This document shows, piece by piece, positions 3,241 through 50,646 of a DNA stretch of 64,000 nt (its first letter is position 1; every line of letters begins with the position of its first letter). Made by a program: the position numbers and the translations under genes. Origin of the DNA: Candidatus Polarisedimenticolaceae bacterium. Lineage in GTDB: Bacteria > Acidobacteriota > Polarisedimenticolia > Polarisedimenticolales > DASRJG01. The notes beneath the pieces are model-generated. The model was not told the origin of the DNA. It saw only the letters and a program-made list of their open reading frames with translations, and did not search any database. The stretch covers positions 62,001 to 126,000 of the forward strand of contig DASUCV010000009.1 of NCBI GenBank assembly GCA_036275915.1, read 5' to 3'.

Positions 3241-3924
3241 TCAGGCCGCCCGGAGGAACTGCTCAGCGACCTCCCGCCAAGCCTCGGGAGAAAGGAGCGT
3301 CGCGGGAGTGCCCGTGAGCGCGCCGCCGTCGGCGGCCGTCAGGCCGAGCCGCGCTTCAAGGAGTCGCGAGAGACGGAGGCTCTCGCCGTTCAGCCACGCC
3401 TTCGCCTCGGGCCCCTCGTGGAGACCCTTGGCGGGAGGCGCGTCGCTCTCGACGCGGAGCATCCATCCACGATGGTAGGGTTCGCGCTCGAACAGCGACG
3501 GGTGGTCGGTCAGCGCTCGGTTGCGCTCGACGATGACGCCGGCGACCGGCGACGGGATCGCGACCAGGCGGTCGCCGCAGCGGACGGCCGCGATGAGATC
3601 CCCTTCGCGGAGACGCAGGCCGATCGGAGGCAGCGCGATGCTCGAGACGCCCGCCAGGACACGCCTGGCGACGTCATCGAGGCCGACCTTCACTTGCCTG
3701 CCCCACTGCCGCTTGACCCACGCGTGCGCCGCGGTGTAGGCGACCCCCGGCTTGTAGAAGACGCCGCCGGCGTCGACCGTGCCTCTGACGCGCGCGCGCA
3801 CCGAGACTACGCCCTGCGCCGCGAAGACGATCGCGGCGACGGGGACCGCGAACGCCGCGAAGAGAAGGACGAAGAGGAGGAGACGGATGCCGAGACCGGC
3901 GAAAAACACCATCACGCTTTCCAT
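3241..3924 (-). CDS. Membrane-anchored GcvH-like protein lacking the lipoyl lysine (copy 2)
   Basis: A 227-residue protein with one N-terminal membrane helix (about 5-35) followed by a glycine-cleavage-H-like fold. Family marks are the HAWVKRQ and VGLDDVARRVLAG segments and the hairpin IPSPVAGVIVERN, which aligns with YAPVSG(E)IVEVN of true GcvH. In GcvH the lipoylated lysine lies eight residues before the proline of that hairpin; here the aligned position is Asp, so it should not be lipoylated. I chose ATG 3924 because GGAGG lies 6 bases upstream; an ATG at 3912 in a TGATG overlap is the alternative. It overlaps the upstream paralogue by 13 bp, implying coupled translation. Role unknown; context suggests an extra-membrane subunit of the HybA/HybB-like complex. 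Confidence 0.8.
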   Translation of the reverse strand: MESVMVFFAGLGIRLLLFVLLFAAFAVPVAAIVFAAQGVVSVRARVRGTVDAGGVFYKPGVAYTAAHAWVKRQWGRQVKVGLDDVARRVLAGVSSIALPPIGLRLREGDLIAAVRCGDRLVAIPSPVAGVIVERNRALTDHPSLFEREPYHRGWMLRVESDAPPAKGLHEGPEAKAWLNGESLRLSRLLEARLGLTAADGGALTGTPATLLSPEAWREVAEQFLRAA

Positions 3925-4625
3925 GACACACCTCCTCCATCGGCGAAGAAGAACTCGCTCTTGATCCGCTCCCACGCCTCGGGCGGAAGCTCGGCGGCGA
4001 ACCCCGAGACGGGAAGTCCGCCGTCGGCCAGCGCCGGTCCGAGCGTCGGCGCCACGACCCCGCGCAGGCGCTCGGCGACGTCTTCCATGAACGCGCGCGC
4101 GGTCGAGCCCGTAAGGAGCTGGCGCCCGTTGGCGGCGAGACGCGGCGCGTGCACGCGGAGAAGCCATCCGTCGCCGTACGGATCGCTCTCGACGGCGTGA
4201 AGCCGCGCCGCCGGGTTGCGCGCGACGACGAGCCCGTCGACGGGAGAGACGACGGGAAGCGAGCCCGCGGCTCCGCGCAGCGTGATCGCCGGCTCGCCCT
4301 GGCGAATGGGCGTGCCGGCCGCCGGAAGGTCGACGTCGCCGATCGGGCCGATCACCGCTCGGGCGAAGTCGTCGACGCCGACGACGACCTCGCCGTCCGT
4401 CGCGGACCGCGCCCAGGCGTGGCCCGGATGCAGCGCGACGCCGTCGGGGACGTGAAACCAACCGGTCGGCACGCGCGCCGCCCGCCGCGCCGGCTGCGCC
4501 TCGAGGGCGGGACCGCGCGGCTCCGCGAAGCGCCAGAAGGGAACGAAGAGGACGAGGAAGCCGACCGCGAGCAGGTACTCGATGGTCTTGGCGGCTTGCA
4601 GCTCGGCGAGCATCCCGTTGTTCAT
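3912..4625 (-). CDS. Membrane-anchored GcvH-like protein lacking the lipoyl lysine (copy 1)
   Basis: A 237-residue protein with an N-terminal membrane helix (about 15-33, IEYLLAVGFLVLFVPFW) and a GcvH-like domain at about 65-150 (HPGHAWAR, VGVDDFARAVIG, VSPVDGLVVARN). The residue matching the lipoyl lysine is Ala, so the usual swinging arm is absent. The C-terminus ends with a PEAWERIKSEFF segment that matches the partner's PEAWREVAEQFL, so the two are paralogues from tandem duplication. GAGGTG precedes the ATG and only 3 bp separate it from the NrfD-like gene. GcvH-like proteins normally carry aminomethyl groups; that chemistry is unlikely here. Loss of lysine in both copies argues for a structural or docking role. 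Confidence 0.8.
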   Translation of the reverse strand: MNNGMLAELQAAKTIEYLLAVGFLVLFVPFWRFAEPRGPALEAQPARRAARVPTGWFHVPDGVALHPGHAWARSATDGEVVVGVDDFARAVIGPIGDVDLPAAGTPIRQGEPAITLRGAAGSLPVVSPVDGLVVARNPAARLHAVESDPYGDGWLLRVHAPRLAANGRQLLTGSTARAFMEDVAERLRGVVAPTLGPALADGGLPVSGFAAELPPEAWERIKSEFFFADGGGVSWKA

Positions 4626-4628
4626 CGC

Positions 4629-5819
4629 TCACCTCGCGTCGGCGCCTAGGATCGGCATCCGGTTGACGATCCACCGGAAGGTCATGACCCCGAGCGTGAC
4701 GATCGTGATCGACCCGATGACTTCCATGACGCTGGGCACGTACTGGAACGGCTGCTTCCAGTTGAAGGCGATGATCGAGACGTCGACGCGGTTCAGGACG
4801 ACCCCGAGGACGGCGAGCACCGCGGCGATCCGGACGGCCTTCACGTTCCGCGTGCGCGAGCCGTACGCGAACATCAGGGAAGGGACGAGGAAGAGCCCGC
4901 CGACCTCGACGAGCCACAGCGCTCCCCAGCCGGTCGCGAGCATCGCCCACGTCCCGCTCTCGGCGAGACCCTGCAGGCGGAGGAAGACGTACGCAAAGAG
5001 GACGATCGCCGCCGCGCGCCCGAGCGTCAGCGCGATCCGGTCGACGTCGACGGGGCGTCCTGATCCCGCCCGGTCGTGGAAGATCTTGTGCGAGACGCCG
5101 CTCTCGAAGATGACCATCGCGAGACCCGCCGCGATCGAGGAGACGAAGAAGAAGACCGGGATGTACGGTGAGTACCAGAGCGGGTGGATCTTGCCGGGAG
5201 CCATGAGGAAGAGGGCGCCGAGCGACGACTGATGCAGCGTCGACAGGACGATCCCGAGCACGATCGCGCCGAGCTCGATCCGATGGAGCGCCCGGAGCGG
5301 CACCTTCCAGCCCATCCATTCGAAGAACGCAGGGAGGAACTCGAGTGCCAGGACCGTCGTGTAGAGGGCGACGCACCAGCCGACCTCGAACATCACGGAG
5401 GTCGTGCCCCACGAGTAGACGATCGGATAGGGGATCCGCCACGGCTGGCCGAGATCGCAGAGGAGGCCGATCACGGCGAACACGTAGCCCAGGAACCCGG
5501 TCAGGATCGCCGCGCGGACGACCGGCTTGAGCTCTCGGAAGCCGAACATGTAGACCGCCGCGGCCAAGGTGTAGCCGCCCGCCGCGAGTGCGACCCCGCA
5601 GAGCATGTCGAAGCCGATCCAGAGTCCCCACGGCGTCGCCTGCGAGAGGTGGGTCGCCGCCCCGAGCCCGAAGGCGAAGCGGTAGACGATCACCGGGATC
5701 CCGATCGCCAGGATCAGCGCGAACGTCAGGTCGACGGCGTTCAGGTGCCGCCGCGCGTACGCCTTCCACCCCGTTCCGAGGAAGAGACGTCCCGCGAGGG
5801 TCGTCGTGGCCTCATTCAT
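4629..5819 (-). CDS. NrfD/HybB-family integral membrane quinone-interacting subunit
   Basis: A 396-residue polytopic membrane protein with about ten hydrophobic segments. It resembles HybB, the cytochrome-less membrane subunit of hydrogenase-2, and the wider NrfD/PsrC family, which passes electrons between a membrane quinone and a periplasmic Fe-S partner. Visible family features are the early TPWGLWIGFDM segment and the GxPWRIPYPIVYSWGTTS loop. It overlaps the HybA-like gene by 8 bp, the usual pairing for these two subunits. No hydrogenase large or small subunit is present, so the electron donor or acceptor differs from hydrogenase-2. Confidence 0.88.
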   Translation of the reverse strand: MNEATTTLAGRLFLGTGWKAYARRHLNAVDLTFALILAIGIPVIVYRFAFGLGAATHLSQATPWGLWIGFDMLCGVALAAGGYTLAAAVYMFGFRELKPVVRAAILTGFLGYVFAVIGLLCDLGQPWRIPYPIVYSWGTTSVMFEVGWCVALYTTVLALEFLPAFFEWMGWKVPLRALHRIELGAIVLGIVLSTLHQSSLGALFLMAPGKIHPLWYSPYIPVFFFVSSIAAGLAMVIFESGVSHKIFHDRAGSGRPVDVDRIALTLGRAAAIVLFAYVFLRLQGLAESGTWAMLATGWGALWLVEVGGLFLVPSLMFAYGSRTRNVKAVRIAAVLAVLGVVLNRVDVSIIAFNWKQPFQYVPSVMEVIGSITIVTLGVMTFRWIVNRMPILGADAR

Positions 5820-6681
5820 GGTCGTTCTCCTCGTCGCGGCGCCGGCTGGCGGTGTAGAGGCCCATGAGGAGCGGGGGCCAGAGGGTGATCACGAACGGGA
5901 CCGCGCCGAGCGCGCCCCGCGTCTTGTCGAAGCGCGTTTCGTCGCCGACGTCCCTCGGGAGGCCGAAGTCCGAGAGCGGCCGGTCGGCGATATACATCCA
6001 CGACGTGCCGCCGGCGTCGTGCTCGCCGAAGATCTCCGGAACGTACGTCGAGCCGGGCGCGTAGATCCGGCGCTTCGCCTCGGCGAGCAGCTCGCTGCGC
6101 TTGCCGAAGGTGAGCGCCTCCGCGGGGCAGTTCTCGACGCAGGCGGGCTTCCCGCCCTTGGCCAGCCGGGTGGCGCACATCGTGCACTTCCTCACGTAGG
6201 GAATCGCGCGGTCGTACTGGTACTTCGGCACGTCGAACGGGCAGGCGACCATGCAGTACCGGCACCCGATGCAGCGGTCCTCGTGGTACACGACGGGGCC
6301 GGCTTCCGTCTTGTCGAGGGCCTTCACCGGACACGCCGACGCGCACGCCGGGACGAGGCAATGGAGGCACTGCGATTTCGCATAGCGGTCCTCTCCCCCG
6401 CCCTGCGCCTTGTTGACGACAGTGAACTGGCCGGGGGACGTCGTGCGGTGCGTCGCGAAGATCGCGTCGTCGCCCATCGCCTCGGGCGCGGCGAGGCCGT
6501 TGGCCTCGGCGCACGCCGCTTCGCAGGTGCGGCAACCCAGGCACTTCGTCGTGTCGACGAGAACGCCGGCCCCGTCGGGCACGGGAGCCGTCTCGCGCGC
6601 GGACGCCGGCAGAGCGCTCGCGGCGCCTGCCGCGCCGATCGCGGCGCAGCTCTTGAGGAACGTCCTGCGGGCGATGCGCAT
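5812..6681 (-). CDS. HybA-like periplasmic 4Fe-4S ferredoxin subunit with Tat signal and C-terminal anchor
   Basis: A 289-residue protein. It begins with a twin-arginine signal (RRTFLKS, residues 5-11) and so folds before export. Four cysteine clusters follow: CLGCRTCEAAC; CLHCLVPACASACP; CIGCRYCMVACP; and a split fourth one, CTMC...CVENCP. This is the pattern of four 4Fe-4S centres seen in HybA and related electron-wire subunits. A C-terminal hydrophobic stretch (about 255-275, VPFVITLWPPLLMGLY) should anchor it beside the NrfD/HybB subunit, whose gene overlaps the end. Role by family: transfer of electrons between the membrane quinone site and a periplasmic partner. Confidence 0.9.
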   Translation of the reverse strand: MRIARRTFLKSCAAIGAAGAASALPASARETAPVPDGAGVLVDTTKCLGCRTCEAACAEANGLAAPEAMGDDAIFATHRTTSPGQFTVVNKAQGGGEDRYAKSQCLHCLVPACASACPVKALDKTEAGPVVYHEDRCIGCRYCMVACPFDVPKYQYDRAIPYVRKCTMCATRLAKGGKPACVENCPAEALTFGKRSELLAEAKRRIYAPGSTYVPEIFGEHDAGGTSWMYIADRPLSDFGLPRDVGDETRFDKTRGALGAVPFVITLWPPLLMGLYTASRRRDEENDHE

Positions 6682-6685
6682 CGCC

Positions 6686-6772
6686 TCACCTCACCCGCGC
6701 GGGGCGCGTCGCCCACCAGCAGAAGGCGACGAGGACGAGTCCCATCCACCAGAATGCGGCTGCGAGGATCAT
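6686..6772 (-). CDS. 28-residue single-span membrane peptide
   Basis: A very short gene (MILAAAFWWMGLVLVAFCWW, then a basic tail ATRPARVR). It is one Trp-rich transmembrane helix followed by a cytoplasmic-type positive tail. Support for it being real: GGAGG lies 7 bases upstream, its ATG overlaps the preceding stop as ATGA (6769-6772), and only 4 bp separate it from the HybA-like gene. Small single-helix subunits stabilise many respiratory complexes, so an accessory subunit of this complex is plausible. No family recognised. Confidence 0.65.
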   Translation of the reverse strand: MILAAAFWWMGLVLVAFCWWATRPARVR

Positions 6773-6975
6773 GGCCTGGCCTCCGTTTCTCGAACCGACG
6801 CGAGACGCGCGATCTCCCGGTACAGCGGGCACGACGCGTAGTCCGACGACGAGCACGGACCGAGCGAGACGACCTGATTGCGCGGGAGGAGCTTGTGCTG
6901 AGGGCAAGCGTCGCAGTACAGCATCACGACTTCCCTCAGGAAGGGGCAGGGCGTCTGATCGTTCGTGAGCTTCAT
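6769..6975 (-). CDS. Small cysteine-rich protein, first gene of the redox operon
   Basis: A 68-residue soluble protein with five cysteines at 10, 21, 24, 41 and 49 (TPCPF, YCDACP, GPCSS, ASCPLY). The CxxC at 21-24 and spaced outer cysteines suggest a zinc or Fe-S site; I do not recognise the family. The ATG at 6975 lacks a Shine-Dalgarno sequence and lies only about 5 bases after the start predicted from the sigma-54 element, so translation may be nearly leaderless. Its stop overlaps the next start. As the promoter-proximal gene it could be a subunit, an assembly factor or a redox-responsive regulator of the complex. Confidence 0.7.
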   Translation of the reverse strand: MKLTNDQTPCPFLREVVMLYCDACPQHKLLPRNQVVSLGPCSSSDYASCPLYREIARLASVRETEARP

Positions 6976-6990
6976 GGCGACCGTTCGTAC

Positions 6991-7006
6991 TGCGATTCGC
7001 GTGCCG
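6991..7006 (-). promoter_or_regulatory. Candidate sigma-54 promoter of the redox operon
   Basis: Read on the minus strand this is CGGCACGCGAATCGCA. It matches TGGCACG-N4-TTGCA at all but two positions and keeps exactly 10 bases between the -24 GG (7005-7004) and -12 GC (6993-6992). Transcription would start near 6980. A sigma-54 activator gene lies directly upstream, which supports the call. Confidence 0.55.
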
Positions 7007-7147: not shown

Positions 7148-8521
7148 TCAACGGCGGGCGATCGGCTCCGGGTCGTCCTCCCGCCTGAGGTCGTACTTGC
7201 GGATCTTCGCGTAGAGCGTCGCGCGATCGATGTCGAGGACGCGCGCCGCCTGCGAGACGTTGCCGCCGGTCTGGCGGAGCATCGCGGCGATGTGACGCCG
7301 CTCGACATCCTCCAGGGACAGCGGCTTCCCAGTCCCCTCTCCGGCGTCGAACGGGCCCAGATGCTCGGGCCTCAAGACCGTTCCCGACGCGAGCACGATC
7401 GCACGCTCGAGGACGTTGCGGAGCTCGCGCACGTTCCCCGGCCAGTCGTGCGCGAGGAGGTGGGACATCGCCTCCTCCGAGACCCCCTCGACCGCCTTCC
7501 CGGTCTCGATCGCCAGGTGCTCGACGAGGTGGGCGACGAGGAGCGGGATGTCCTCCTTCCGCTCGCGCAGGGGCGGGAGGGTCAGCGGGATGACGTTCAA
7601 TCGGTAGTAGAGGTCCTGGCGGAAGGCTCCGTCGCGGATCGCGCGGGGGAGGTCGCGGTTCGTCGCCGCAACGACGCGCACGTCGACCGGAATGGCGACG
7701 GTGCCGCCGACCCGCGTGATCTTGCGCTCCTCGAGGACGCGCAGGAGATCGATCTGGAGCTTCGGGCCGATGTCGCCGATCTCGTCGAGGAAGAGCGTGC
7801 CCCCGCCGGCCGCCTCGAACTTCCCCTGGTGGCGGTCGACGGCACCGGTGAACGCACCTCGCTCGTGACCGAACAGCTCGGACTCGAGGAGCGTCTCGGT
7901 GAGCGCGGCGCACGAGACGGCGACGAACGGCTTGGCCGCGCGCAGGCTCTCGGCGTGGATCGCGCGGGCGAGGAGGTCCTTCCCGGTGCCGCTCTCGCCG
8001 AGGATGAGGACGGTCGAGCCGCTCTTCGCCGCGGCCCGCGCCAGCTCAAAGACCGCCTGCATCGCCGGCGATTTGCTCACGAGGTCACGGAAGGTGTAGC
8101 CGCGCTTCAAGACCTTCCGGAGGATGAGGTTCTCCCGCCGGAGCGACTGCTGCGCGACGATCTTTTCGACCATGAGCGAGAGCTCCTCGGGGTCGAACGG
8201 CTTCATGAGGTAGTCGTAGGCGCCCAGCTTCATCGCGCGTACCGCGGTGTCGACGGTGGCGTACGCGGTCATGATCACGGCCGCGGCGGCGGGACGGATC
8301 GTGCGCGCCTCTTCGAGGACCTGGAGTCCGTCCATCGGTGTCATCTTCAGGTCGAGGAGGATCACCGACCACGAGTCCTCGCCGCGGAGCATCGCGAGCG
8401 CGGTGGGCCCGTCGGCCGCCGCCGCGACGGTGTAGCCGTCCTTTCTGAGCCAGCTCGTGAGCGACTCGCGGACGATCTCCTCGTCGTCGACGACCAGGAT
8501 TCGAACGGCTTTCCGGCTCAT
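7148..8521 (-). CDS. NtrC-family sigma-54-dependent response regulator
   Basis: A 457-residue regulator. Receiver domain 5-120 with phosphoacceptor Asp57 in VILLDLKM and switch lysine in LMKPFD. AAA+ domain about 145-385 with Walker A GESGTGKD (175-182), the sigma-54 contact loop GAFTGA (222-227) and Walker B GGTLFLDEIGD. C-terminal Fis-type helix-turn-helix (LEDVERRHI ... NVSQAARVLDIDRATLYAKI). It activates RNA polymerase carrying sigma-54 once phosphorylated. It is last in the operon with the sensor kinase and the archaemetzincin gene (4 bp upstream). The nearest sigma-54 promoter is directly downstream at 6991-7006, so the membrane redox operon is its probable target. Confidence 0.93.
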   Translation of the reverse strand: MSRKAVRILVVDDEEIVRESLTSWLRKDGYTVAAAADGPTALAMLRGEDSWSVILLDLKMTPMDGLQVLEEARTIRPAAAAVIMTAYATVDTAVRAMKLGAYDYLMKPFDPEELSLMVEKIVAQQSLRRENLILRKVLKRGYTFRDLVSKSPAMQAVFELARAAAKSGSTVLILGESGTGKDLLARAIHAESLRAAKPFVAVSCAALTETLLESELFGHERGAFTGAVDRHQGKFEAAGGGTLFLDEIGDIGPKLQIDLLRVLEERKITRVGGTVAIPVDVRVVAATNRDLPRAIRDGAFRQDLYYRLNVIPLTLPPLRERKEDIPLLVAHLVEHLAIETGKAVEGVSEEAMSHLLAHDWPGNVRELRNVLERAIVLASGTVLRPEHLGPFDAGEGTGKPLSLEDVERRHIAAMLRQTGGNVSQAARVLDIDRATLYAKIRKYDLRREDDPEPIARR

Positions 8522-8525
8522 GCCA

Positions 8526-9053
8526 TCACCTCCCGTGGCGGCGCGACTCGTCGTAGAGCAGTCGGCAGTCCCGGCAGAACGTCTCGCCCTTGACGTCGAT
8601 CTCCCGGACGCCCGGCGAGCGCGCCATCACGCACCCCGGGCTCCCGCAGTGCACGAGACCGTAGACGTGTCCCAGCTCGTGCAGCGACTCCTTCCGCAGG
8701 CGCTCCGCGAGACGTCCCGGCTCCCGCGCCGCGAGGCGCGCCGTCGAGACGACCGCCGCGCGGCCCGCCAGCTGCGCCTCGCCGAAGACGAAGGTCAGGA
8801 TCGGAATGAAGAGATCGACGTCGGTGATCCCGATCACCTTGGCCGCCTCGGGATGCCTGGTCCCGAGCCACTCGAGGATCGCCCCCGAGTCGTACTGGCC
8901 GCGTCGCGGATCGCGCGCCACGCGGGGACGCTCCGGCTCGAAGCCGAGACGGACGCGCTGACGCAGCTCCAGATGGAGGTGCCGGACGAGCGGATCGCAG
9001 AGACCCGGCCCGGGGTCGCCCTCCCCGATCCAGCAGGCGACGACGCCGTCCAT
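8526..9053 (-). CDS. amzA: Archaemetzincin-type zinc metalloprotease
   Basis: A 175-residue protein carrying the full archaemetzincin signature: HELGHVYGLVH (125-135, three zinc-binding histidines and catalytic Glu126), then C136, C141, M143 (the Met-turn) and the distal pair C160-x2-C163, which bind a second structural zinc. The length fits the family (about 160-200). Substrates of bacterial members are unknown. It sits between the sensor kinase (3 bp upstream) and the response regulator (4 bp downstream), so all three should be made together. That placement is unusual for the family and suggests proteolysis linked to this signalling pathway. Confidence 0.93.
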   Translation of the reverse strand: MDGVVACWIGEGDPGPGLCDPLVRHLHLELRQRVRLGFEPERPRVARDPRRGQYDSGAILEWLGTRHPEAAKVIGITDVDLFIPILTFVFGEAQLAGRAAVVSTARLAAREPGRLAERLRKESLHELGHVYGLVHCGSPGCVMARSPGVREIDVKGETFCRDCRLLYDESRRHGR

Positions 9054-9056
9054 CGC

Positions 9057-10652
9057 TCACGCCACCCGCGCTCCGACGGGGACGAGGGGCAGGCGGATGC
9101 GCACCGTCGTTCCCAGACCGGGCTTGCTCGCGATCTCGAACTGGCCGCCGAGGTTCTCCACGATCCCGTAGACGACCGAGAGGCCGAGACCCGTCCCCTT
9201 CTCCTTCGTCGTGAAGAACGGATCGAAGATCCTGTCGAGATGCTCGGCGTCGATGCCGCTTCCTTGATCCGAGATCACGACGACCGCGTCGCGACCGTCC
9301 GGATCGCCCTCGGGCCGGATCCGGATGACGCCGCCTTTCGACGAGGCCTCGATCGCGTTGACGAGGACGTTGACGAACGCCTGGCGCAAGCGGCCGAAAT
9401 CCGCCTTCACGATCGGGTGCGGCTCGAACGCGAAGTCGATCGTCAGGCCCTGCATCTCGGCCTGGTGCGTCACCAGGTGCACCGATTCTTCCAGGACGGC
9501 GCGGACGTCGATCTCGCGGAGGTCGAGCGGGCGCTGGCGCGCGAAGTCGAGGAGGTTGCGCACGATCGCGCTGCAGCGCTCGGTCTCGCGCTGGACGAGC
9601 CTCAGACGGGCGAGCGCCTCGCCGCGTGTCTGCTGATCGATCGTCTCCTGGTCGAGATCGCGGACGAGCAGCTTCGAGAACGTCAGGATGCCGGCGAGCG
9701 GGTTGTTGATCTCGTGGGCGATCGACGCCGATAGCTTGCCGAGCGACGCGAGCTTCTCTCCTTGAAGGAGCTGGGCGTGGGCCTGTTTGAGCGCCGCCGT
9801 GCGCTCCTCGACCTGGCGCTCGAGCCCGCCCAGCAGGCCGTCGATCTCGGCACGGGCGTCCCGCAGCGAGAGGCGCATCCCGTCGAACGACGTGGCGAGC
9901 GCTCCCAGCTCGTCGTCGGTGCGCGGGTGGACCGGTTTGTCGAGGTTGCCGCTCCCGATCTCCTGCGTCGCGCGCACGAGCGCCTTCACCGGCTTCACGA
10001 TGAAGCGCCGGCTCACCTGCAGGATCACGCCGACGAGGAGGAACGTCAGCAAGATCCCGACGCCGAGCGTCTTGAAGCGGAGCGCGGCGATCTCCTCGTC
10101 CATGCCGCGGAGCGAGACGCCGAGGTCCACGATCCCGAGGATCGGCTGCTCGGCCGTCGTCGCATGACAGGCCTGACCGGCGCAGGCGGGCTCGTTCCTG
10201 ATCGGCGTCATGAAGCCGAGGACGCGGTGGTCGCCCGAGCGCACGATGCGCGCCCGCGCCGCCTCGTCGAGCGCCGCGAGCGGCTTCGGCCCGGCGTGGC
10301 ACGAGGCGCAGAAGTCGGTCGCTCGAGGGAGCGTCGTTCCGATCTCCGCGGGGTCGGTCGAGAAGGTGATCCGCCCTTCCTTATTGATGAGGCGCACCTT
10401 GTCGATGCGGGGCAGGCCGCCGATCTCGCGGATGACCTGGTACGCCTCGTCCTTCCGCGCCCGCAGCATCTGGTCGTGCGTCGCGCGGGTGATGCTGTCG
10501 CCGAAGAGCGCGGCGCCGTCGATCGCCTGCGCGATGAGGTGGCGCTCCTGCTCTCTCACTCCCAAGACGACCGCGATCGAGATGGCGCCGAACGTCGTCG
10601 CTGCGACGAGCGCCGTCAGACGCGTTCCGATGCGGCGGTGCCATGGGACCAT
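9057..10652 (-). CDS. Sensor histidine kinase with periplasmic c-type heme motifs
   Basis: A 531-residue membrane kinase. Membrane helix 1 at about 12-31 and helix 2 at about 194-214 flank a periplasmic sensor of about 160 residues. The sensor holds CASCH (115-119, a classic CxxCH heme attachment site) and CAGQACH (157-163, CxxxxCH spacing). HAMP follows at about 215-268, then a coiled coil, HisKA with His313 in AHEINNPLAG, and HATPase (NVLVNAIEAS, DQGSGI, GTGLGLSVVYG). Covalent heme would let it sense redox state or a gas such as oxygen or NO. It is first in the operon with amzA and the NtrC-type regulator, its likely partner. CxxxxCH is a less common heme motif, so the second site is less certain. 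Confidence 0.92.
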   Translation of the reverse strand: MVPWHRRIGTRLTALVAATTFGAISIAVVLGVREQERHLIAQAIDGAALFGDSITRATHDQMLRARKDEAYQVIREIGGLPRIDKVRLINKEGRITFSTDPAEIGTTLPRATDFCASCHAGPKPLAALDEAARARIVRSGDHRVLGFMTPIRNEPACAGQACHATTAEQPILGIVDLGVSLRGMDEEIAALRFKTLGVGILLTFLLVGVILQVSRRFIVKPVKALVRATQEIGSGNLDKPVHPRTDDELGALATSFDGMRLSLRDARAEIDGLLGGLERQVEERTAALKQAHAQLLQGEKLASLGKLSASIAHEINNPLAGILTFSKLLVRDLDQETIDQQTRGEALARLRLVQRETERCSAIVRNLLDFARQRPLDLREIDVRAVLEESVHLVTHQAEMQGLTIDFAFEPHPIVKADFGRLRQAFVNVLVNAIEASSKGGVIRIRPEGDPDGRDAVVVISDQGSGIDAEHLDRIFDPFFTTKEKGTGLGLSVVYGIVENLGGQFEIASKPGLGTTVRIRLPLVPVGARVA

Positions 10653-48916: not shown

Positions 48917-50050
48917 ATGATCCGCCGCCGGCAGTTCCTGGAAACGAGCACGCTCGCCGCGCTCGGGACGATGCTCGCAGGCTCGACCCGTGCCTTCGCG
49001 GCGTCGGAGCCGGCGCACGACCTGATCGTGCGCAGCCTTCTCCCCGAGAATCTTGAGACGCCGATCGCGTGGTTCGACCGGCTCGTCATCCCGAACGACG
49101 TCTTCTTCGTGCGGAGCCACTTCGGTGTCCCGCGCGTCGGCGCCGCCCACACATTGCGCGTCGAGGGAACGAAGCCGCTCGATCTGACGCCGGCCGATCT
49201 CGCCGCGATGCCGCAGACGACCGTCGTCGCGGTCCTCCAATGCGCCGGCAACGGCCGCTCGCTGATCGAGCCGCGCGTTCCGGGGGTGCAGTGGGGCCAC
49301 GGCGCGATGGGCCAGGCGTCGTGGACGGGTGTGCGCCTCAAAGAGATCCTCGACCGTGCGGGCGTTCCCGCCGACGCCAAGCACGTCCAGCTCGAAGGCG
49401 CGGACGCCCAGCCGAAGCCCACGACGCCCGCCTTCCACCGCTCCATCCCCCTCGATCGGGCGCTCGATGTGACGACGCTCGTCGCGCTCAAGATGAACGG
49501 CGAGCCTCTCTCGCACGCGCACGGCGCCCCGTTCCGCCTCGTCGTCCCGGGGTGGGCCGGCGATCATTGGATGAAGTGGCTGCGCACGATCCGGCCCCAG
49601 GCCGCCGAGGCGGCCGGCTTCTACATGCAGACCGGCTACAAGATGCCCAAGTCGCCGGTCGAGCCCGGCGCCGCCGTGAAGCCCGAGGACATGGCCTCGC
49701 TCACCACCTTCCCCGTGAAGTCGGTCATCGCGCGACCGGCCGACGGCGGGAAGGCGCCGCGCGGCACGCAGGAGGTCGCGGGTGTCGCCTTCTCGGGGCT
49801 CGCGCCGATCGCCGGAGTGGCCGTCTCGACGGACGGCGGATCGACGTGGCAGACCGCGAGCCTCGAAGGCGAGGCCGGGGTCGGCCGGTGGCAGGTCTTC
49901 CGCTACGGGTTCAAGGCCTCACCCGGCAACGCGCAGGCGATGGCGCGCGCGATCGATGCGAAGGGGAACACGCAGCCCGAGAAGCTCTCGTGGAATCCGA
50001 GCGGCTACTTCTGGAACGCGTGGCACCGCGTGCAGTGGGAGGTCGTGTGA
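48917..50050 (+). CDS. Periplasmic molybdopterin sulfite dehydrogenase-like protein
   Basis: A 377-residue protein of the sulfite oxidase family. Twin-arginine signal (RRRQFLET), then a molybdopterin domain with the molybdenum-ligating cysteine in VLQCAGNGRS (about 110-119), conserved HGAPFRLVVPGWAGDHWMKWL, and a C-terminal dimerisation domain (VSTDGGSTW ... NPSGYFWNAWHRV). This matches SorA/SoxC-type enzymes, oxidising sulfite (or a sulfur intermediate) and passing electrons to cytochrome c. It overlaps the cytochrome gene by 4 bp. Confidence 0.92.
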   Translation: MIRRRQFLETSTLAALGTMLAGSTRAFAASEPAHDLIVRSLLPENLETPIAWFDRLVIPNDVFFVRSHFGVPRVGAAHTLRVEGTKPLDLTPADLAAMPQTTVVAVLQCAGNGRSLIEPRVPGVQWGHGAMGQASWTGVRLKEILDRAGVPADAKHVQLEGADAQPKPTTPAFHRSIPLDRALDVTTLVALKMNGEPLSHAHGAPFRLVVPGWAGDHWMKWLRTIRPQAAEAAGFYMQTGYKMPKSPVEPGAAVKPEDMASLTTFPVKSVIARPADGGKAPRGTQEVAGVAFSGLAPIAGVAVSTDGGSTWQTASLEGEAGVGRWQVFRYGFKASPGNAQAMARAIDAKGNTQPEKLSWNPSGYFWNAWHRVQWEVV

Positions 50051-50646
50051 GGGCGGCGATCGTCGCGATCGCACTCGTCCTGACCGGCGCGTGCACGGCT
50101 CCTCCTCAGCAGGTGCAGCACGTGCCCGAATCCCATCCCGTCGACACCGCGTTTCTCAAGAACGATTGCGTTGCCTGCCACACCGCCGACCTCGTCGCGC
50201 AGCAGCGCCTGACCGACAAGCAGTGGCCGAAGAGCGTCGACAAGATGCGCGGGTGGGGCGCTCCGACCGAGGACGACGAGGTTCAACCGCTCCTGGCGGG
50301 ACTCCTCGGAGTCGCCTCGCGCGACGCCGGTCCTTACGTGCCGAAGACGATCTCGGCTCACGAGGCGGCGCAGCTCTTCACGACCGCGCCCGACGGCAAG
50401 CTCGGCGGCGGCGACGTCAAGAAGGGTCGCGACCTCTACGCCGACCGCTGCTCCCCCTGTCATGCCGACGACGCGCGCGGCGGCACGATGGGCGTCGCCC
50501 TCGCGGGGCGGCACGTGCTCGACCGCGCGCCCGACTTCGCCCGAGCGATCCGCGCCGGCCGTGGGCGCATGCCTGAGTATCCCGAGACAACCGACGCCGA
50601 GATCGCGGACATGATCGCGTACCTGAGGTCGATCAAGGCGCCGTGA
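50047..50646 (+). CDS. Diheme cytochrome c lipoprotein (SorB/SoxD-like)
   Basis: A 199-residue protein. Lipoprotein signal ending in LTGAC, then two heme motifs CVACH (about 41-45) and CSPCH (about 138-142), with a plausible axial Met in GRGRMPEYPE. GTG start overlapping the molybdoenzyme stop (GTGA). It should accept electrons from the upstream sulfite dehydrogenase and hand them to a terminal oxidase or other cytochrome. Confidence 0.9.
   Translation: MRAAIVAIALVLTGACTAPPQQVQHVPESHPVDTAFLKNDCVACHTADLVAQQRLTDKQWPKSVDKMRGWGAPTEDDEVQPLLAGLLGVASRDAGPYVPKTISAHEAAQLFTTAPDGKLGGGDVKKGRDLYADRCSPCHADDARGGTMGVALAGRHVLDRAPDFARAIRAGRGRMPEYPETTDAEIADMIAYLRSIKAP

Follow-up and report, generated by a model that had tools for sequence, protein, structure and literature searches.

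Sensor proteins in which a Cache domain carries a single c-type heme are known, and it is debated whether the signal they detect is redox state or NO. In the Geobacter sulfurreducens chemoreceptor GSU0935, Met60 is reported to be a ligand of the reduced heme that is released upon oxidation (PMC8396549). An extra heme motif is mentioned for the chemoreceptors Gsu0591, Gsu0599, Adeh_2011, and Adeh_3383 in one sentence of PMC3831638. Here we describe a locus in which a sensor domain related to that of GSU0935 has two such motifs and belongs to a histidine kinase. Its gene lies close to those for an NtrC-type regulator and an Hmc-like electron-transfer module.

The window, by which we mean the whole stretch of 64,000 nucleotides that was analysed, contains the following features of interest.

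9057..10652, minus strand: sensor histidine kinase of 531 aa, ordered TM1, periplasmic single Cache, TM2, HAMP, HisKA, and HATPase_c
10467..10469, minus strand: codon of Met62, a candidate redox-switched axial ligand
10296..10310, minus strand: putative heme motif 1, CASCH, residues 115-119, in the loop between strands 2 and 3 of the structural model; the extra site
10164..10184, minus strand: putative heme motif 2, CAGQACH, residues 157-163, in the loop between strands 4 and 5 of the model; in the profile alignment it coincides with the one heme site that GSU0935 has
8526..9053, minus strand: archaemetzincin-type zinc protease (Peptidase_M54) with intact signature, 3 bp past the kinase gene
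7148..8521, minus strand: NtrC-type response regulator with receiver, Sigma54_activat (GAFTGA), and Fis-type HTH, 4 bp past the protease gene; the likely partner
6991..7006, minus strand: sigma-54-like (-24/-12) site CGGCACGCGAATCGCA, preceding the small protein and HmcB
6769..6975, minus strand: small Cys-rich protein of no Pfam family, 68 aa if translation starts at the first in-frame Met
5812..6681, minus strand: HmcB-like 4Fe-4S protein
4629..5819, minus strand: HmcC-like NrfD membrane subunit
3912..4625, minus strand: GcvH-like protein 1, with an N-terminal hydrophobic segment and Ala at the place of the lipoyl lysine
3241..3924, minus strand: GcvH-like protein 2, with an N-terminal hydrophobic segment

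The only open reading frame of the kinase interval runs on the minus strand from 10652 to 9057. Pfam domains were found at residues 215-265 (HAMP), 304-373 (HisKA), and 420-523 (HATPase_c), and hydrophobic stretches at approximately 11-33 and 188-219. Because these stretches flank residues 115-163, both motifs fall inside the loop between the helices, which is where an earlier note on this DNA had placed CASCH and CAGQACH; the note named no strand. Cys360 is the only cysteine of the kinase outside the two motifs. The presence of both motifs exceeds chance, since they appeared together in 8 of 200,000 shuffles of residues 35-195; we consider motif conservation across relatives a stronger test.

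A search with the sensor region across 396 genomes of the same phylum gave matches in 141, and both motifs were present in all 30 loci when the query was taken together with the 29 best-scoring other loci of the phylum. A scan of named genomes gave 375 relatives, and the counts below use the best 80 of these 375, with the query added where n = 81. Cysteines were excluded from the peptide patterns that retrieved these 80, which according to their record titles span Acidobacteria (including Geothrix), Anaeromyxobacter, Rokubacteria, Planctomycetota, Hydrogenedentota, KSB1, and others. Motif 1 was CxxCH in 81/81, Met62 was invariant (81/81), and motif 2 was CX4CH in 79 of the 81 and CX3CH in the other two (L049, L105). 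The cysteines are thus conserved in orthologues, a point on which the earlier note had staked its heme proposal. It had also called the four-residue spacing of motif 2 a rarer one; the rarity is real, and this spacing is the rule within the kinase clade.

We took 40 weaker relatives from the same phylum and left out one that was unreadable (L125). Motif 1 was present in 38 of the remaining 39, all except L150, and the position of motif 2 read CX4CH in 31, CX2CH in six, CX3CH in one, and CX5CH in one. The CX2CH variants have some of the lowest scores in this set, and the most economical interpretation is that CX4CH arose by insertion of two residues into a CX2CH site and was then fixed in the clade. 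A His two residues past motif 2 occurs in 79/81 sequences and is missing from the query kinase, which also sits on a long branch of the kinase tree, so the heme chemistry of the query may differ from that of its clade.

The predicted structure of the sensor (mean pLDDT 81.7, pTM 0.71) has helices at residues 4-63 and 67-78 and strands at 83-90, 94-98, 134-139, 142-152, and 171-180, followed by the TM2 helix; the loops that bear the motifs have the lowest model confidence within the sensor domain. A long N-terminal helix with an antiparallel sheet of PAS/Cache fold is what a single Cache (sCache) domain has, and the model shows both. The structural matches were Cache domains, namely those of WalK (Z 13.0, 2.1 Å, 136 residues), KinD, CitA, and DctB, and GSU0935 was at rank 13 of the Foldseek matches to the model. 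At the level of families, no heme-sensor family scored above its Pfam cut-off in the sensor. Weak Pfam matches were to Mcp40H-20_sensor in 16/16 members tested (best E 1.7e-5) and to sCache_3_2 in 8/16. The query itself gave 14.2 bits against PF21563 (Mcp40H-20_sensor), below the gathering score of 27 bits; we take this family to cover the sensor domains of GSU0935 and GSU0582.

A profile of 62 relatives matched GSU0935 (PDB 3b42) with an E of 1.2e-4 in two co-linear stretches, and a 16-sequence profile gave a weaker match. In this alignment motif 2 lies on the heme motif and Met62 on Met60, the position of Met60 being counted from the motif His taken as His144 (numbering from PMC8396549). A co-linear profile match that includes both the heme motif and the distal Met indicates homology with the GSU0935-type heme sensors. 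Judged by its kinship to GSU0935 and GSU0582, covalent heme with redox or gas sensing, as first suggested in the earlier note, is probably the right class of reading. The Cache-type matches, together with the position of motif 2 on the only heme site of GSU0935, point to a single Cache domain to which one heme site (motif 1) was added.

We considered membership of PF11845 (sCache_heme) and rejected it on the results of hmmscan, a search for the family in 119 genomes, and a profile-profile comparison. Neither the query nor any of 16 relatives matched PF11845 when E was allowed to reach 10, and the query's own genome had no match either. In the profile-profile comparison only the heme stretch of motif 2 aligned, with 37% probability; of the 25 PF11845 loci read for it, L171 and L179 (no sequence) and L172 (50 residues) were dropped ahead of the alignment, and L174, which has a masked stretch and no motif and looks misread, was kept. 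In sCache_heme proteins a canonical CXXCH occupies a conserved inserted loop. In our kinase the equivalent site is CX4CH, and the CxxCH is in another loop.

The genes around the kinase lie on one strand in the order kinase, archaemetzincin, NtrC-type regulator, a gap of 172 bp, small Cys-rich protein, HmcB, HmcC, two GcvH-like proteins, and pyruvate:ferredoxin oxidoreductase. An Lhr-type helicase upstream of the kinase is encoded in the opposite direction. With its receiver, its sigma-54 ATPase containing GAFTGA, and its Fis-type HTH, the adjacent regulator identifies the pair as an NtrC-type two-component system, and, as far as gene order can indicate, the kinase may transfer phosphate to it. 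GAFTGA was exact in 23 of the 39 NtrC-type regulators compared. The HmcB-like and HmcC-like proteins score below the cut-offs of their NCBIfam models (336.7 vs 420 for NF045715, and 477 vs 550 for NF045714). Apart from the kinase, the cluster in the window contains no frame with at least two heme motifs near the kinase or hmcBC, and hence no multiheme HmcA. The only other frame with two heme motifs in the window, at 49057-50643 on the plus strand, carries two CxxCH and, toward its C-terminus, a cytochrome c domain (453-526). The own genome has just one other HmcC-like locus, and among the matches listed on that contig no other kinase was within 8 kb of it.

The protease between kinase and regulator scored 141.3 bits with the NCBIfam model archmetzin, slightly below the cut-off of 145. 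Its zinc signature, which we take to be HExxHxxGxxHCx4CxM...CxxC, is full in the window and, without the last CxxC pattern, was found in 30/33 neighbouring homologues.

We then compared the neighbourhoods of the best 80 of 375 relatives. HmcB and HmcC were both encoded within 8 kb of the kinase in 55 of the 80 loci; for the 39 loci with 5 kb or more of flanking sequence on each side, the count was 32. Within 1.5 kb past the kinase, the partner was an NtrC regulator in 37/80 loci and a fusion of a receiver to a GcvH-like domain in 32/80, and no locus had both. The 11 loci with neither partner include eight that end less than 0.7 kb past the kinase. HmcBC was near the kinase in 23 of the 37 NtrC-type loci; among the 14 where it was not found, five extend 5 kb or more to each side. 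A protease directly past the kinase was found in 27/37 NtrC-type loci and in 0/32 fusion-type loci. A cytochrome with at least four CxxCH lay within 8 kb of the kinase in just 14 of the 80 loci. Four loci (L065, L092, L114, L115) have a multiheme cytochrome (4-14 CxxCH) within the cluster of kinase and HmcBC, with which the sensor hemes might exchange electrons.

Geothrix fermentans (L091) illustrates the fusion type. Its gene order is hmcB, hmcC, kinase, and receiver-GcvH fusion, and the 373-residue fusion (L091:11447-12565) consists of an N-terminal hydrophobic segment, a receiver at 67-174, and GcvH at 223-320. This membrane-anchored protein, present in L091 and 31 other loci of L039-L118, appears to be a response regulator with an unusual output. 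The receiver Asp motif is retained in 31 of the 32 fusions, and among the matches listed (best 25) no NCBIfam model spans the whole fusion. A GcvH-like domain is common to the neighbourhoods of both partner types, and the column of the lipoyl lysine holds Lys in only six of the 83 GcvH-like domains near the kinase. GcvH-like protein 1 of the window has Ala where the E. coli H protein has the lysine that is lipoylated, and so does not qualify as a lipoyl carrier. We also built a tree from 79 of the 81 kinases, those of at least 400 aa. One change between NtrC and fusion partner suffices on this tree, and 0/500 shuffles were as low; the branch of the partner change has 11% support, and one NtrC row (L096) falls among the fusion rows.

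The gap between regulator and HmcB contains the sigma-54-like site CGGCACGCGAATCGCA, which is only about 16 bp before the first Met of the small protein; an alternative start Met lies at 6924. The small Cys-rich protein is the first gene after this site and has homologues in many NtrC-type clusters. We scored such gaps with a weighted, region-specific sigma-54 matrix in the window and in the 17 of the 37 NtrC-type loci whose HmcB gene has the same orientation as the regulator gene and lies no more than 4 kb from it (n = 18). The best site in the gap reached p < 0.05 against dinucleotide shuffles in 13 of the 18 loci, and for the window 0/200 shuffles were as good. Among the controls, the opposite strand of these gaps gave 0/18, and the region upstream of HmcB in fusion-type loci gave 1/26. 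With a simpler shuffle the count was 14/18 in the gap and 2/18 upstream of the kinase. A plain consensus scan of the whole window showed no excess (10 sites vs 10.85 expected), and the site named above is among those 10. Because the weights were set by ourselves and the loci are related, these results are suggestive of an NtrC-type regulator that drives the electron-transfer genes.

These data lead us to propose that the kinase senses redox state in the periplasm through two c-type hemes bound by one and the same sCache domain and that it controls the adjacent Hmc-like module through the NtrC regulator. We estimate the probability of this at about one half. Heme 2, attached at CX4CH with His163, would occupy the place of the only heme of GSU0935, and Met62 would be its ligand in the reduced state and dissociate upon oxidation. 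This switch could shift the Cache domain together with the long helix at its start. The additional heme, attached at CxxCH, may relay electrons between heme 2 and periplasmic or quinone-linked carriers. The signal would pass through TM2 and HAMP to the kinase and from there to the adjacent NtrC-type regulator, which with sigma-54 would control the small Cys-rich protein, HmcB, HmcC, and the two GcvH-like proteins. Both the choice of this operon as the target and the direction of its control are part of the proposal. It is the operon and the partner genes, which the earlier note did not cover, that lead us to favour redox control of an electron-transfer complex. Several observations count against it: no multiheme cytochrome is encoded beside the kinase in the window and only 14 of the 80 loci have one within 8 kb, HmcBC is not found at all NtrC-type loci, the query kinase lacks the His past motif 2 and has a long branch, and a related single-heme protein binds NO (PMC12889525).

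The main rival, which we regard as rather improbable, is a periplasmic NO (or CO) sensor. The gas would displace Met62 on heme 2, heme 1 would only tune potential or stability, and the module would handle the respiratory consequences. What gives it this rank is a related single-heme protein with sensor-like NO binding: PMC12889525 describes tight NO binding and slow release by a signalling-type sCache_heme protein of P. azotoformans. According to PMC8396549, the reduced heme of GSU0582 and GSU0935 also binds CO and NO, with displacement of Met60. However, the NO-sensing sCache_heme example in PMC12889525 is without a protein axial ligand, whereas Met62 is invariant in the kinase clade. Among the gene families counted, moreover, the recurrent neighbours of the kinase are electron-transfer genes.

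It is unlikely, in our judgement, that the hemes serve the Hmc-like complex chiefly as a cofactor for electron transfer, with the kinase docked there and electron flux, not ambient potential, as its signal. Such docking would fit the fusion-type loci, as in Geothrix fermentans, where the kinase comes directly after hmcC and its partner bears a GcvH-like domain, and it would fit the presence of that domain with both partner types. In the window, however, the kinase of the NtrC clade seems to be transcribed apart from hmcBC, to go by the 172 bp gap and the sigma-54-like site. That the Cys/His motifs bind a metal or act as thiol switches is very improbable: residues in a C..CH arrangement are able to bind metals and the heme in the kinase is a prediction, but the full motif grammar, including the His, is kept at both sites in nearly all relatives, motif 2 aligns with a crystallographically proven c-heme site, and the genome encodes cytochrome c assembly proteins.

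In the open-access PMC literature that we searched, we came across neither a CX4CH diheme sensor kinase nor its association with an Hmc-like module, and no account of a response regulator built as a receiver-GcvH fusion. A conserved, putative two-heme sensor with its regulator and probable targets adjoining provides a direct means of finding out which signal such sensors respond to. In the Geothrix-containing clade the diheme kinase is inside the hmcBC operon and its partner receiver is fused to a GcvH-like subunit. For this clade we put forward, tentatively and as a possibility with the odds against it, that the two-component pathway acts on a respiratory complex directly, the phosphorylated fusion gating it without transcription, and that the NtrC form in the window is the transcriptional version. 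That one complex is accompanied by an NtrC regulator in some loci and by a receiver-GcvH fusion in others suggests that electron-transfer complexes of bacterial membranes may be regulated through phosphorylation of a subunit. GcvH-like proteins whose lipoyl lysine has been lost would thereby gain a candidate role. The kinase occurs in the named cultured species Geothrix fermentans, Geothrix rubra, and Anaeromyxobacter soli.

As to known systems, the closest models for the kinase core and the sigma-54 regulator are AtoS/AtoC and ZraS/ZraR of the NtrC family. The window differs from them in its sensor domain, in the intervening archaemetzincin, and in its other neighbours, and the scores are below the curated cut-offs. 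In the module, the iron-sulfur protein is similar to HmcB of the Hmc complex and the NrfD-type membrane protein to HmcC. Unlike that complex, the module scores below the cut-offs, has no multiheme HmcA in the window, and has GcvH-like membrane proteins added. The sCache_heme proteins (DUF3365/Tll0287-like, PF11845) share with our kinase a periplasmic Cache domain and a c-heme motif in an inserted loop, and some are histidine kinases, according to PMC12889525. However, that text gives them one canonical CXXCH that is 99% conserved, and our kinase has no PF11845 match. Gsu0591, Gsu0599, Adeh_2011, and Adeh_3383 resemble it in having a second heme motif in a GSU0935-related domain, in the one sentence noted above, but are chemoreceptors. 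Closest in the sensor are the G. sulfurreducens chemoreceptors GSU0935 and GSU0582 (PDB 3b42, 3b47), which have a single Cache, a c-heme motif after a strand ending in P..NE, and Met60 in the place of Met62. Whereas they have one CX2CH heme and a chemoreceptor output, the kinase described here has two motifs, CX4CH at the shared site, and the output of a histidine kinase.
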